From contig JANQEQ010000173.1 in NCBI GenBank assembly GCA_028278245.1, positions 62,001 through 126,000 on the forward strand: a stretch of DNA of 64,000 nucleotides. Direction: 5' to 3'. A model generated the notes under the pieces. The model was given only the letters and a program-made list of their open reading frames with translations. It was not told the DNA's origin and ran no database searches. The translations under genes were made by a program, and so were the position numbers. Within the stretch, counting starts at the first letter, position 1, and the number at the start of each line of letters is the position of its first letter. Below, piece after piece: positions 25,854-31,702 of the stretch. The stretch is from Phycisphaerales bacterium (GTDB taxonomy: Bacteria > Planctomycetota > Phycisphaerae > Phycisphaerales > SM1A02).

Positions 25854-26519
25854 TTACGCAAAGAAGGGTAAGCCGGAAATTCGACAAGCCCCTCGTCGGT
25901 AGCCGCCGGGAAACAATTCCTTTAGATCATCAAGTTCCAGGTTATGAGCTTCGCAAACCTCATGCACATTTGGAATGTTGTGCATCGCCTGATAGTAGTT
26001 CCTCAGGAAATGAATCACTTGCCAGTGTTTGTCCGTCAAACCTTCGCTTAATCCCCATTCGTCCCCAATTAAATGGGCATATCGCTCGTTCCAGGTTTCA
26101 TAATCTGCTAGGAATCCCTGTGGCGTGATCTTGTATTCGGATTTGAGGTTAGGGACCGTCTCGTAAGTATGCCAGATATTTACATCACAGAGAAATGCAT
26201 AGCTTAGACCGGCAATACGACATGCCCCTCGGAAGTATCCGGTTGGAAACAATGATCTGAGTTTATCGAGCCGCCAGTGATTATCCAGACATGCCACTAC
26301 CAGCAGTGGTAGTGTTTTCTCTTCCTGATATTTATTTCTAATGTAGTAGATAAAATTCCAGTGATCTTGGGTCATACCATCGTAGATGCCCTGCAACCTG
26401 GCCATGCTGCGTGCAAACTCTTCATCCCATAACTCTGGATTAGCCAGGAATCCGTATTTATCCAATACATAAGTTTTACCTTCCCCGGAGGTAATCGTCT
26501 TCGTCTTATCTGAGCTCAT
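25854..26519 (-). CDS. Fusion of two DsrC/TusE-type domains in one chain
   Basis: DsrC/TusE proteins carry sulfur or electrons on a swinging C-terminal arm with one or two cysteines. This 221-residue protein is two such domains in tandem. Domain 1 (about 17-111) ends RGACRIAGLSYAFLC: Cys100 and Cys111 are 11 residues apart, the spacing of the CysB/CysA pair of DsrC. Domain 2 (about 128-221) has the same layout (ITPQGFLADYETWNERYAHL, LTDKHWQVIHFLRNYY, LFPGGYRRGACRISGLP). It has Cys212 but stops 9 residues later, so it lacks the arm-tip cysteine. The first domain's arm is not at a free C-terminus. Start ATG 26519 follows AGGGTGG; GTG 26528 is an alternative. It is the last gene of the operon with the DsrK- and DsrM-like subunits. 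Confidence 0.85.
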   Translation of the reverse strand: MSSDKTKTITSGEGKTYVLDKYGFLANPELWDEEFARSMARLQGIYDGMTQDHWNFIYYIRNKYQEEKTLPLLVVACLDNHWRLDKLRSLFPTGYFRGACRIAGLSYAFLCDVNIWHTYETVPNLKSEYKITPQGFLADYETWNERYAHLIGDEWGLSEGLTDKHWQVIHFLRNYYQAMHNIPNVHEVCEAHNLELDDLKELFPGGYRRGACRISGLPFFA

Positions 26520-26601
26520 CGATTCCACCCTGCTAGGAGTGAGTAAGTGTGATGTTCACAGTATTGTAGTGTACCCGTAGGAAACTTCGTGGGATTCTGA
26601 C

Positions 26602-27933
26602 TTACACATACTCCTTTCGATCTGCAGCCTTTCCATTAATGAGTATTGATCTGGACAGCATATCATGTACGCCGCCCACATCGATTTCTTCGTCATGATG
26701 CTCCATGAGTTGCGTCAGTTGCCGCTTACAGTTGGAGCAGGCGGTTGCGATATATTTTGCTCCCGTATCTCGAACTTGCTCGAGTTTCTTTACACCGGAA
26801 ACTTCCATCCGGAATTCAATAATGTCATCCATTGCGGAAAGACCACCGCCACCTCCGCAGCACCAGTTTTCGCCTCGGTTGGGATACATCTCGCGGAAAT
26901 CGGCGCAGGCCGCTTGCAGTATTACACGAGGATCCTCTGTGATTCCGCAGGAACGACCGAAGTTGCAGGGATCGTGATACGTGACCGGCTGAGGATTCTT
27001 GGATTTATCAAACTCAAAGTGGCCTTCTTTGATGCGATCAGCTGTCCATTCCATGCAGTTTTCAACCTTGAAGGGCAGCTCCCCCCACCATCCCGTCTTC
27101 TCCATCATCATTTTCATGATGCGATATGCGTGGCCGCACTCACCCATCAGCATTGTCTTGCATTTGAGATCCTTTGCTTCTTGAACGTATAACTCGTTAT
27201 CCTTTTTCATATCACCGTCATTTCCGGTGAACAAGCCGTAATTAGCTCCATCAAAACACTTGGAACTCATTGTCCATTTATCTGCCATACCCAGGATGTG
27301 AAATACTTTGGCTAGTCCCATGGTCGCTTCGGGGTTGACTAACACATCACCCGATGGTGGAACATAAAAATAATCTGCCCCTTCCACATCGACCGGGATC
27401 TTGATGGGAATGCCGTGCTCTTCCTCCATCTCCTCTTCCAGGAATTCGATGGCGGCTTTGAATGCCACATCATTGGCTCCATCGGTATTACCGGTTTCCA
27501 GCGAAATGTCGACGACCTTCTGCATCGTGTCCGGCGTCTTCCCAAGCATATCGAGGATCGCGCGGCCTTTGCGTGTCATCACTGAGTGGTCAATACCGAA
27601 TGGACAATATGTGGCACAACGACGGCAACCGGTACACTCGTAAAAGATTGAGCGCCACTCCTCAATATCTTCAGGGTTGAAATCTTCGGCACCAGCCCAC
27701 TTGCCAAATAAACGACCTGTAATAGTGCAATATTTACGGTAAATCCGTCGGATCAAGTCCGTGCGTTCAGCAGGATTGTATCTTTTCTCACTCTTACCGT
27801 GATAAATCGGGCAGACCGAAGCGCAGGTTCCGCACTTGGCGCATGTTTCCATATACAAGCGCCCGGCACGTGGTCCGTTTTTAATAGCCTTGATTGCGTT
27901 AACAACTTTCTCTTTGACATTGGTGTCTGACAT
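26602..27933 (-). CDS. DsrK / HdrD-like iron-sulfur oxidoreductase (CCG domain)
   Basis: In sulfate reducers DsrK takes electrons from the DsrM cytochrome b and reduces the DsrC disulfide or trisulfide. TmcB and HdrD are close relatives. This 443-residue protein has two 4Fe-4S motifs: C31-x2-C34-x2-C37-x3-C41 and C100-x2-C103-x2-C106-x3-C110. A C-terminal CCG domain has C323, C358-C359 in WCCGGGGG, and C399/C402 in ACSNCKRQ, the ligands of the special heterodisulfide cluster. Cys226 and Cys266 (GECGHAYR) add to a preceding half-domain. The start at 27933 has GGGAG 9 bases upstream. No signal peptide is present, so it should act at the inner face of the membrane. Confidence 0.88.
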   Translation of the reverse strand: MSDTNVKEKVVNAIKAIKNGPRAGRLYMETCAKCGTCASVCPIYHGKSEKRYNPAERTDLIRRIYRKYCTITGRLFGKWAGAEDFNPEDIEEWRSIFYECTGCRRCATYCPFGIDHSVMTRKGRAILDMLGKTPDTMQKVVDISLETGNTDGANDVAFKAAIEFLEEEMEEEHGIPIKIPVDVEGADYFYVPPSGDVLVNPEATMGLAKVFHILGMADKWTMSSKCFDGANYGLFTGNDGDMKKDNELYVQEAKDLKCKTMLMGECGHAYRIMKMMMEKTGWWGELPFKVENCMEWTADRIKEGHFEFDKSKNPQPVTYHDPCNFGRSCGITEDPRVILQAACADFREMYPNRGENWCCGGGGGLSAMDDIIEFRMEVSGVKKLEQVRDTGAKYIATACSNCKRQLTQLMEHHDEEIDVGGVHDMLSRSILINGKAADRKEYV

Positions 27934-27977
27934 TCGTGTGTCTCCCGGAGTAGCGGGTTGAACCACTATTCACATTA

Positions 27978-28694
27978 TTATTTTCGAATGAGTTGGTGAG
28001 TGAAGAATATCCCGCCGAAATGCAAAAGCTTGCTAAATGGCATGCACATGATTAGCAAAAACGCCAGACTCATGTGAAGCACAAAGGTGCCGTTCTGGAG
28101 AGCTGCTATATCAGTAAAATTTCTAAACGTTGCAAGGTCGGCGAAGTACTCGCGTGTGAGTACTAAATCAAAGTGCTCGGGGCCAAAGCGCATGATGTTA
28201 CCGGTAATAATGATCGCTCCAATGAGTAACAGAGCAAGGTAATCTGCAAACCCGGTAATCTCGCGGACACGCGGAATGGCTAATCTTCTTACTAGTAGAA
28301 GTACTGTTGCCGCCAGGATGATCACACCCGCCGCCCCTCCCGCACCCGTGGACATGGCCAGAATAGCGTCCTCACTCATCCCCAGTGACATGAGCAATTG
28401 ATCAATATTGGTAAAGACGCGGAGATGTCCAAGAATGATCAATACCAATACCAGGTGAAATATCCAGGCGATAATCCATAACAATCGGTCACCTTTAAAC
28501 AAGCTCGAGAAGAACACTGATTCTTTAATAGTGTTCAAGGTAGGGCTGCCTCCACTCGTAGAGGCAGGAAACAGTGTCATCGGAGGTGAAGCCAGTTTCT
28601 TCCAGGTAAGAAACCGCCAAATCATACCCAACAGAAAAACAATGACCGCGACGTAGGGCAATATAACTCCGAAGAGAAATCTCAGGCTTTCCAT
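27978..28694 (-). CDS. DsrM / NarI-like membrane cytochrome b
   Basis: The 238-residue protein has five membrane helices and no signal peptide. His80 and His90 lie in one helix (WIFHLVLVLIILGHLRVF). His207 and His225 lie in another (TFVLHMSLAFLLIM and FSKLLHFGG). These four are good heme b ligands, as in NarI and DsrM. Such subunits pass electrons between (mena)quinol and a soluble iron-sulfur partner. It is NarI-sized and shorter than typical DsrM or TmcC. The DsrK-like gene begins 45 bases downstream, which is the usual pairing. There are no DsrJ, DsrO or DsrP genes here. Confidence 0.85.
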   Translation of the reverse strand: MESLRFLFGVILPYVAVIVFLLGMIWRFLTWKKLASPPMTLFPASTSGGSPTLNTIKESVFFSSLFKGDRLLWIIAWIFHLVLVLIILGHLRVFTNIDQLLMSLGMSEDAILAMSTGAGGAAGVIILAATVLLLVRRLAIPRVREITGFADYLALLLIGAIIITGNIMRFGPEHFDLVLTREYFADLATFRNFTDIAALQNGTFVLHMSLAFLLIMCMPFSKLLHFGGIFFTHQLIRK

Positions 28695-28771
28695 GTGTCG
28701 TTATTCCTTCACGTAGGGATGAGTAAAAAACACAAGACAACGTCCCGGTTGCGTTGCCTTGCGTTGCGGAT

Positions 28772-29089
28772 TCAAGCGCACCCGGGTGGGCGAGGTAGTC
28801 CTGCCAAGCGATATGCACCCTTCACCGTACCGCACGGAAACAGGTCGCAGATTTCCTTGGATGACAGTCCAGTCGTCTTGCCGATCTTCGCCACCGGAGG
28901 TCCAATGTTGTAGCTTTCGTAATAGCTCTTTACATACTCAATCACCTTCCAATGGTTATCCGATAGTTGACCGACATCGTGCTTATAAGCGAGTTCCTGG
29001 GCCATCGTTCTATCCCAATCCGACATAGTCTTTAAGAAACCATCGTAATCAGTTTGAGATATATTCTTGGGTGTTTCCTCATGGATCAT
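28772..29089 (-). CDS. Single-domain DsrC/TusE-like protein with only the arm-tip cysteine
   Basis: This 105-residue protein has the DsrC layout (DYDGFLKTMSDWDRTMAQEL, LSDNHWKVIEYVKSYY, CDLFPCGTVKGAYRLAG) and the conserved end GLPRPPGCA. Cys104 is CysA. The place of CysB, 11 residues before, is Tyr93. TusE-like and some other DsrC homologues also lack CysB, so it should carry sulfur or act as a partner rather than form the intramolecular disulfide. Extra cysteines C81 and C86 lie near the arm base. The ATG at 29089 overlaps the end of the upstream regulator gene by 11 bases and follows AAAGGG. A start at 29128 is possible but lacks family match. Confidence 0.85.
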   Translation of the reverse strand: MIHEETPKNISQTDYDGFLKTMSDWDRTMAQELAYKHDVGQLSDNHWKVIEYVKSYYESYNIGPPVAKIGKTTGLSSKEICDLFPCGTVKGAYRLAGLPRPPGCA

Positions 29090-29918
29090 CGTTATCCCTT
29101 TCAGTCTGATGGATTTGCGTGCTTTCACTTATTGGATGGGGCAGGATTGAGGAATCGTTTATCGTTGTAATGATCCGACTACATTGAAAAGGTTTTTCCA
29201 ATATGCCGATGATCTGGTCACGATTGAATCGACGATGCCGGCGTTTATTAAACTTGGGAGGTACCGCGATAATGATCCTAATCCCCGGTACTCGTGGATC
29301 AGAAACAAGCGCATCAATCAGTTCAGATTCCCTGCCTCTAGTACACTCAATGTCAATAATGGCAACAATCGGTCGGAAGTCTTGAACTAATGCTGAAGCC
29401 AAGTATACATTTGAGGCAAACCGAAACAGAATACTCTCATTCTCATCACTCAAAAGCTTTTCGGTTTGATCGTCGTCAGTGGTGATCACGAGGATGTGAG
29501 GAGCGAGACCATTCACATGACGGTAATAGTTGCAATCTTCGCACGAAGTCTGACAGAATTGATGCGCATGCCCAACTTCCTGATCCAAATCTGCAAGGAC
29601 ATAACAATTCTTTGCTCTGATTTTGTAGACTACACAATCAAGACATTCATCCCTGACTGTTCCTTGATGACTCAGGTACTCCCAACAGCGGAGTTCTCGT
29701 TGAGCGTATCTCTCAGGTAACGTATCTTCACATTTCCGTGCGAGCGCAGTCGCGACATGTGGTTCCAGGTCATTTCGATCTATGCGATAGTGCCCACCAG
29801 CTGTACGTACACCCTTCAATCTTCCTTTCTTGATCCATTTGAGAACAGTGTCTGGAGTGACCGAGTAAAGCGCAGCCACTTGGCCTGTAGACAACAGTCT
29901 GTGCGGCTCTGGTAACAT
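29079..29918 (-). CDS. HTH regulator with a Cys-rich centre and a receiver-like C-terminus
   Basis: Residues 8-55 are an excisionase/MerR-like DNA-binding domain (LLSTGQVAALYSVTPDTVLK, then GGHYRIDRND). Residues 63-130 hold eight cysteines (C63, C78, C92, C95, C105, C122, C126, C129), with CWEYL, ECLDC and FCQTSCEDCNYY. They may bind a metal or iron-sulfur cluster or act as a redox switch. Residues 139-255 look like a response-regulator receiver: acidic DDD148-150, Asp189 in AIIDIE, and Lys242 in ILEKPF, but no Ser/Thr at the expected strand-4 site. It begins the DsrC/M/K operon and probably controls it. An inverted repeat lies about 24-38 bases upstream of the start. The family is not one I can name. 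Confidence 0.75.
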   Translation of the reverse strand: MLPEPHRLLSTGQVAALYSVTPDTVLKWIKKGRLKGVRTAGGHYRIDRNDLEPHVATALARKCEDTLPERYAQRELRCWEYLSHQGTVRDECLDCVVYKIRAKNCYVLADLDQEVGHAHQFCQTSCEDCNYYRHVNGLAPHILVITTDDDQTEKLLSDENESILFRFASNVYLASALVQDFRPIVAIIDIECTRGRESELIDALVSDPRVPGIRIIIAVPPKFNKRRHRRFNRDQIIGILEKPFQCSRIITTINDSSILPHPISESTQIHQTERDNDDP

Positions 29919-30283: not shown

Positions 30284-31702
30284 CTACATTCGATACATGA
30301 CACGAGCCATCTTGCGCAACCTGGAACTTCCCTGCATCAGTTTCATCATCCACGTTTCCGCAATGCGTTTGCTCAGGAATCCCATGGTCGGGAAGGAATG
30401 CTGCAGCATCATGACATCATGCAGACGTATCTTCTTCTGGATGGCCAGCGCCCACTCGTTGATCATTTCACCCGAACCCTCGCCGATGATCACCGTGCCG
30501 TAGATTCGTCCCCATTTGCTTGCGAACACTTTGACGAATCCGGTATCGACATTTTCCGCAATGGCAGCACCATAATCGCCGTACGCCACCTTTATCGTCT
30601 CGTAGGCAGAACCCCGTTCCTTGAGCTGTGTTTCCGTCAATCCCGCCTGCGAAAACTGCGGCTCTGTGAAAACCGTCCAGGGAACAACGTATTTACGGAA
30701 ATTCATTTTCATCGGTCCGGGCATCATCGCATTCATCAATGCAATCATACCCTGATGCATCGCAGCATGTGAGAGAAGGTGATGGCCGTTGCAATCACCA
30801 CAGGCGAAGATGTGTTTGGTACTGGTGCGCAGGTACTTATCAACAGTGATGCCGCCTTTGGTGAACGTAACGCCGGCATTCTCCAGCGTGAGCGCATCGA
30901 GATTGATCTGTCTTCCGGCAGCTACCAGTAGTTTTTCCCCGACAAGCTGTTCGTTCTGATCGGTATGGACCACAGTGTGGCCGGACTCGTTCAGTTCAAC
31001 CTTGCTGATCATGCGCGCGTTGTAAACTTCAATCCCCTCTTCCTTAAGTTTCTCTTCGAGCAACGCTGCTGCTTCTTCATCTCCAACCGGAACCAGGTGT
31101 GGATCCATATGAACGATGGATACTTTGCAACCCAGGCGACCGAAAGCCTGCGCCATCTCGCAACCGATCGCGCCGCCACCGATGATCACCATTGATTCGG
31201 GAATGCTATCCAGATCAAACATCGTCTCGTTGGTGAGGTAGTCGACTTGATCCAGGCCGGGAATGGGCGGCGCAGCGGGACTGGTACCGGTGCAGATGAA
31301 GATTCGTTTTGCGGTGATTGTTTTCTCGCCGACTCTGACCGTATGAGGATCGACAAACGATGCATCGCCCTCCCCCAAATGCAGGTCGACCTTTTCGAAC
31401 ATCTTTTTCGTTTTTGTTTCGCTGATGTAGGCAAGATCATTCTGGATCTTCGTTAATGGTTTCACCAGACCGGGCAGTTCACATACTGCCAGTTCCATTT
31501 GGGGGAATTTAGTCACAGCATGGCGCGTCTTGGCAATACGGAGGAGCGCCTTACTGGGAATACAACCGACGTTCATGCACTCGCCGCCGATCTTTCGACG
31601 TTCGATGGTGCAGACTTTGAGCCCCATTTCCGATGCCATGACCGAGACAGCCATCCCGGCAGGTCCCAGACCGATGCTCAATACGTCATAGTCGTACTTC
31701 AT
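30284..31702 (-). CDS. Dihydrolipoamide dehydrogenase-like FAD/NAD(P) disulfide oxidoreductase
   Basis: The 472-residue protein is a class I pyridine nucleotide-disulfide oxidoreductase. It has an FAD loop (GLGPAGMAVS), the redox disulfide C42-x4-C47 in GGECMNVGCIPSK, the NAD loop VIIGGGAIGCEMAQ, and FAD-binding FACGDCNG. The C-terminal interface holds HSFPTMGFLSKR in place of the Lpd motif HAHPTxSE, so the active-site His may be His448-like but the context differs. Relatives include Lpd, mercuric reductase-type and sulfur-metabolism flavoproteins. It lies just upstream of the DsrC/M/K operon on the same strand, with a 365-base gap. It could supply NAD(P)H electrons to a dithiol partner. Substrate unknown. 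Confidence 0.8.
   Translation of the reverse strand: MKYDYDVLSIGLGPAGMAVSVMASEMGLKVCTIERRKIGGECMNVGCIPSKALLRIAKTRHAVTKFPQMELAVCELPGLVKPLTKIQNDLAYISETKTKKMFEKVDLHLGEGDASFVDPHTVRVGEKTITAKRIFICTGTSPAAPPIPGLDQVDYLTNETMFDLDSIPESMVIIGGGAIGCEMAQAFGRLGCKVSIVHMDPHLVPVGDEEAAALLEEKLKEEGIEVYNARMISKVELNESGHTVVHTDQNEQLVGEKLLVAAGRQINLDALTLENAGVTFTKGGITVDKYLRTSTKHIFACGDCNGHHLLSHAAMHQGMIALMNAMMPGPMKMNFRKYVVPWTVFTEPQFSQAGLTETQLKERGSAYETIKVAYGDYGAAIAENVDTGFVKVFASKWGRIYGTVIIGEGSGEMINEWALAIQKKIRLHDVMMLQHSFPTMGFLSKRIAETWMMKLMQGSSRLRKMARVMYRM

Follow-up and report, generated by a model that had tools for sequence, protein, structure and literature searches.

The stretch of DNA considered here, referred to as the window, is 64,000 nucleotides from a Phycisphaerales bacterium (GenBank assembly GCA_028278245.1, contig JANQEQ010000173.1, positions 62,001 to 126,000), and between its positions 25854 and 29918 lie five genes on the minus strand that form a module related to the DsrC and DsrMK proteins of dissimilatory sulfur metabolism. 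In one of the oldest respirations sulfur is shuttled by DsrC, a protein whose chemistry is taken to be defined by two cysteines in one arm; in this module the two cysteines appear to be divided between two proteins. In order of transcription the genes are as follows.

29079..29918, minus strand: regulator (PF12728, E 4.8e-12; homologue alignment; AlphaFold/Foldseek)
28772..29089, minus strand: single-domain DsrC-like protein, sDsrC (PF04358, 91.7 bits; TIGR03342, 82.2 bits)
27978..28694, minus strand: short DsrM-like cytochrome b of the NarI family, 238 amino acids (PF02665, 90.2 bits)
26602..27966, minus strand: DsrK-like protein, likely ATG at 27933 (PF02754, 49.2 bits; PF13183; NF045796, 355.6 bits)
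25854..26528, minus strand: double-DsrC protein, dDsrC (PF04358 in two stretches, 144.6 bits)

All five open reading frames are found where a first-pass annotation of the sequence had placed them, and the parts it listed (a regulator, a single DsrC, DsrM-like and DsrK-like proteins and a double DsrC) hold on profile scores and conservation. The same evidence rules out an artefact of gene calling or chance, because 12 other genomes, from several phyla, have the same set of genes. The mechanical reading frame of sDsrC begins at a GTG at 29128, the likely start being the ATG at 29089, with AAGGGA just before it, and from this start the gene overlaps the 3' end of the regulator gene by 11 bases, which bears out the earlier proposal that the overlap marks a single regulated unit. 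The G+C of the module is 0.474, compared with 0.524 for the window.

Both DsrC-like proteins are members of the DsrC family PF04358/TIGR03342, with PF04358 scores far above the curated cut-off of 24.9 bits and TIGR03342 scores (82.2 bits for sDsrC, 111.9 bits for dDsrC) above its cut-off of 53.5 bits. The AlphaFold model of dDsrC (pLDDT 86.5) has two DsrC folds, and its PDB matches with E < 0.001 are all DsrC. A redox-type DsrC carries CysA and CysB in one C-terminal arm, and neither the single nor the double protein does so. sDsrC retains CysA as its penultimate cysteine, Cys117, and has a Tyr in place of CysB, and in the alignment of module single DsrCs CysA is kept and the CysB position is Tyr or Phe in 14 of 14. 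Two extra cysteines, Cys94 and Cys99 ('IC' and 'FPCG'; residues are counted from the GTG), are invariant together with Cys117 in the same 14 sequences, a pattern that no canonical DsrC collected from the Dsr genomes shows. In dDsrC the CysB position is kept in each domain (C103 and C215), as it is in nearly all module relatives, and in an alignment of 12 relatives neither domain shows a conserved CysA arm, the protein ending before CysA is reached; Cys114 in domain 1 of the window protein does stand at a CysA-like spacing, but relatives carry other residues there. Because sDsrC keeps CysA without CysB, and dDsrC keeps CysB without a CysA arm, the redox pair of DsrC is, on these alignments, divided between two proteins that are encoded together, and a partnership or reaction between the two would be suggested by this arrangement. 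The first-pass annotation was correct in that both the single and the double DsrC are real, although the division of CysA and CysB was overlooked. No description of this set, or of its divided cysteines, was found in the open-licence literature searched, which is weak evidence of absence. A conserved set that divides the DsrC cysteines between two proteins would let the working of the shuttle and of DsrMK be tested directly.

A DsrC fold with CysA only is also the state of TusE, the sulfur relay for tRNA thiolation, but sDsrC scores 52.7 bits, far under the TusE equivalog cut-off of 191, has the two extra invariant cysteines, and is linked to DsrMK genes rather than to those of a tus operon. 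Double DsrCs also stand alone, without the rest of the module, in three genomes belonging to the same phylum (L043:9443-10444, L044:6839-7810 and L045:9213-9968), where the CysB of domain 2 has been lost.

For DsrC-fold proteins without active cysteines a role as regulators has been proposed, and it could be that the double DsrC is such a regulator and not a redox carrier, with the module mainly acting as a redox sensor. The lack of CysA in both domains would fit with this, as would the divergently read Cys-rich helix-turn-helix (HTH) regulators that are sometimes found beside double DsrCs. It is nevertheless a very improbable explanation, as the CysB retained in both domains would be needless for pure DNA binding, and the catalytic motifs of the DsrM and DsrK that the module also encodes are complete.

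The DsrM-like protein is well above the cut-off of the Pfam family Nitrate_red_gam (PF02665, 90.2 against 22.9 bits) and its top NCBIfam match is DsrM (NF038037), at 119.6 bits against an equivalog cut-off of 300; it is a short form, some 100 amino acids shorter than canonical DsrM, that in alignment retains four His at the likely heme-ligand positions of the canonical protein. The DsrK-like protein passes the CCG (PF02754) and Fer4_8 (PF13183) models and reaches 355.6 bits with NF045796, for which the cut-off is 400 and the canonical DsrK of another carrier scores 707. It is a CCG protein of the DsrK/HdrD type, having two Cx2Cx2Cx3C [4Fe-4S] motifs and one complete CCG motif (C334, C369-C370, C410-x2-C413), with all motif cysteines invariant in 12 of 12 module sequences. 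The CCG motif ends in C-x2-C, whereas the canonical DsrK of carrier genomes ends in C-x2-D, so that a Cys replaces the Asp at the last position. In a tree of 47 sequences, made from the homologues collected in this analysis, module DsrK forms one clade (100/99) that is sister to the canonical DsrK of Dsr genomes (95/88) and apart from the Hmc/Tmc-like groups, and within it the window DsrK groups with Gemmatimonadota (97/83). Comparison with the profiles of sulfate reducers and of Hmc/Tmc, which the first-pass annotation had proposed, upholds the family of the DsrC proteins, whilst DsrM and DsrK fall below their equivalog cut-offs.

In the known pathway DsrAB and DsrC form a DsrC trisulfide, which is then reduced by DsrMK(JOP) (PMC10504309; PMC6470260). 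The module has in common with this system the DsrC fold, a diheme NarI-type DsrM and a DsrK with two [4Fe-4S] motifs and a CCG site, and is a variant of it, a divergent second set and not the canonical one; a fragment of canonical DsrMKJOP is rejected by score, size and tree. No dsrJ, dsrO or dsrP adjoins the module in the window, where a DsrMKJOP complex would be expected to have these subunits encoded together, and the module differs further in having a dedicated Cys-rich HTH/receiver regulator. The Hmc and Tmc complexes, also proposed to interact with DsrC (PMC6470260), likewise combine a DsrK/HdrD-like subunit with a NarI-like membrane subunit, but an Hmc/Tmc-type module is rejected by score, as module DsrK reaches only 196.5 bits with HmcF and 215.5 with TmcB, far less than with DsrK, and neither a ferredoxin nor an NrfD subunit is present. 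None of the neighbourhoods read showed recognisable sHdr (HdrA/B/C-type) genes, although no search aimed at sHdr was made. Matches to DsrC and DsrMK are by themselves no proof of canonical sulfate or sulfite reduction.

The regulator has an N-terminal DNA-binding domain of the HTH_17/MerR-like type, followed by a middle domain with seven Cys (78, 92, 95, 105, 122, 126 and 129) and a C-terminal receiver-like domain with Asp189, all of these residues being invariant in the homologue alignment. The receiver fold is matched by Foldseek on the AlphaFold model, for which confidence is low in the Cys domain. The same strand encodes, upstream of the module, a MerA/dihydrolipoamide dehydrogenase-like flavoprotein (30284-31702); this pyridine nucleotide-disulfide oxidoreductase was rejected as a member of the module as no homologue adjoins the module elsewhere.

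Relatives were found by scanning one genome per species with the window DsrK only, without the use of dsrAB, which gave 12 loci in Gemmatimonadota (3), Elusimicrobia, Planctomycetota, Acidobacteria, Calditrichaeota, LCP-89, a 'Deltaproteobacterium' (labelled Myxococcota in the tree) and others, so that the five-gene set occurs in at least six bacterial phyla. Regulator, single DsrC, DsrM, DsrK and double DsrC recur at these loci, save at contig ends, in two Gemmatimonadota (L031 and L038) where the double DsrC is on the opposite side of the regulator, and in L032, where neither double DsrC nor regulator was recognised. Four loci (L034, L035, L036 and L040) have the five genes in the exact order of the window and share no further neighbours. 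A DsrK gene of this kind is missing from most of the genomes sampled in the organism's family and order, and no DsrC was found in nine sampled genomes of the family. As the window DsrK groups with Gemmatimonadota and most sampled genomes of the family and order are without the gene, the evidence points to horizontal transfer of the module, although its low G+C names no donor because the Gemmatimonadota loci are G+C-rich.

Nearly all of the other carriers possess the Dsr pathway. Of the 12 genomes, 11 contain NIR_SIR genes in a dsrA/dsrB pattern, and the remaining one (G396), without a dsrAB match, does have aprA; counting scores over the threshold and large fragments together, 10 of the 12 have aprA, and one further carrier, G011, has aprA, Qmo and dsrMKJOP. 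Near dsrAB in the same genomes are a canonical dsrC, dsrMK(JOP), dsrN and a dsrL-like gene. There is also local linkage, with the module adjoining dsrN-dsrL-dsrB in Gemmatimonadota L029/L054 (in L054 only 110 bases separate the end of the module from the convergent dsrN-dsrL-dsrB), sharing one contig with dsrAB some 30 kb away in G394, and in G011 containing homologues of dsrJ, dsrO and dsrP between DsrM and DsrK, with siroheme genes nearby. Amongst 395 Gemmatimonadota genomes the module is found in two and dsrA in six, both module carriers being dsrA-positive (Fisher P 1.9e-4, which is only a guide, the sample being centred on one carrier). A search for DsrD gave no match, but also none in any control genome, and is thus uninformative, and TusA and DsrE matches are scattered among carriers with no clear link to the module. 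The first-pass annotation had argued from the lack of dsrAB to another use for the module, an argument that is weakened by these carriers; its statement that dsrAB and dsrJOP are missing holds for dsrAB in the genome as assembled and for dsrJOP beside the module in the window, but not for the loci elsewhere that adjoin dsrN-dsrL-dsrB or have JOP genes inside the module.

Because the 12 other carriers, which were found without using dsrAB, all encode dsrAB or aprA, the reading we lean towards, with slightly better than even confidence, is that the module is an accessory relay between menaquinone and a DsrC thiol or trisulfide in bacteria with Dsr-type metabolism, the copy in the window being orphaned or horizontally gained, or its dsr genes unassembled. 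The electron flow, its direction and the trisulfide chemistry are what we infer from the genes and their motifs. DsrM, as a diheme cytochrome b, would exchange electrons with menaquinone, and DsrK would pass them on to its CCG-type iron-sulfur site, where a disulfide or trisulfide on the two DsrC-like proteins would be reduced, or would yield electrons. CysA of the single protein and CysB of both halves of the double protein would act as the divided redox pair of a normal DsrC. In Dsr-type dissimilatory sulfur metabolism the module would probably have an accessory role beside canonical DsrC and DsrMKJOP, under the control of its own Cys-rich HTH/receiver regulator. The earlier idea of a relay from menaquinol to a thiol carrier stands, as a suggestion.

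A second candidate user of the DsrC carriers exists in the same genome. One other DsrK-like gene lies there on contig C99, in a cluster encoding a MerR-type regulator, DsrK2, HmcE/TmcC-like, HmcB-like and HmcC-like proteins, a PAS histidine kinase and two receivers; this type of cluster is also found in several other carriers, and the Hmc-like complex may use the same DsrC proteins as the module. The complex (L070:9044-16776, in G000) is without an HmcA cytochrome and includes a long NrfD-type protein, and the histidine kinase has several cysteines in its PAS region.

Several points weigh against an accessory role in Dsr metabolism. The partnership of the split cysteines is read from sequence, and Cys99 or Cys94 could instead form an internal pair with Cys117 within sDsrC. 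As four of the six Gemmatimonadota with dsrA do without the module, Dsr metabolism does not require it. The organism itself is represented by a metagenome-assembled genome of 180 contigs, and the search for dsrAB elsewhere in it, as the first-pass annotation had advised, found no dsrA or dsrB (PF01077, TIGR02064), no aprA and no canonical DsrC in a genome that is 88.84% complete. Given these absences, and the nine genomes of its family without DsrC, the sulfite-reductase partner may be truly absent, although the absence is soft because 11% of the genome is missing.

It is possible, with a chance well short of even, that the organism does encode the Dsr pathway, with an apr/qmo/dsr cluster in the unassembled 11%, an explanation that concerns this genome only and is compatible with the accessory relay. 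The strong association of the module with Dsr and Apr argues for it, as do G011 and G396, which likewise show gaps in dsrAB despite having aprA or qmo, and because apr and dsr lie close together in several carriers (G393, G394, G397 and G403) one gap could remove them all. On the other hand, canonical dsrC, dsrMK and aprA would all have to be missing together, and the sampled relatives also speak against it, with the nine genomes lacking DsrC and the same-family genome G668 having a different single DsrC, together with a DsrK-like gene, and no dsrA.

If the absence is real, the module may be a stand-alone relay in which menaquinol reduces a DsrC-borne thiol or persulfide for another partner, such as TusA- or DsrE-fed sulfur transfer, polysulfide reduction or redox homeostasis. 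The genome, without dsrAB, aprA, canonical DsrC or a third DsrK-like gene, has kept the module and the Hmc-like complex, and it has a TusA homologue (57.4 bits) and a weak DsrE-like match (26.9 bits). This is unlikely, as all 12 other carriers have dsrAB or aprA and the apr-qmo-dsr genes, often one cluster, could be missed whole in a genome 88.8% complete. Still less likely is that an electron module of Dsr origin was uncoupled and put to new use here, as a two-protein DsrC trisulfide shuttle working with its own DsrMK and without dissimilatory sulfite reductase. A DsrAB-free organism would be the exception, the module elsewhere being nearly always found with the classic sulfite-reductase pathway, and the claim of a DsrAB-free use is drawn from one incomplete genome.

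More promising as a DsrAB-free DsrC relay than the module in the window is a set of cysteine desulfurase, single DsrC, HmcE-like membrane protein and HmcF/DsrK-like protein (L049:8317-11826 and L050:2613-6118), whose genomes (G012 and G099, of the same phylum) gave no dsrA match. In G668 a cysteine desulfurase, the DsrC and a DsrK-like gene lie within about 10 kb (L072). Other related DsrK clusters are found directly beside the module in L029, L031, L038 and L041. In several phyla a macro-domain (ADP-ribose-binding) protein adjoins an HmcF/TmcB-like DsrK, and in L029 the DsrK of this group carries a fused receiver domain. The pairs of macro-domain protein and HmcF/TmcB-like DsrK are at the following positions.

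L041:4351-6984
L074:1606-4675
L081:5072-8075
L085:8198-11221
L086:10899-13869

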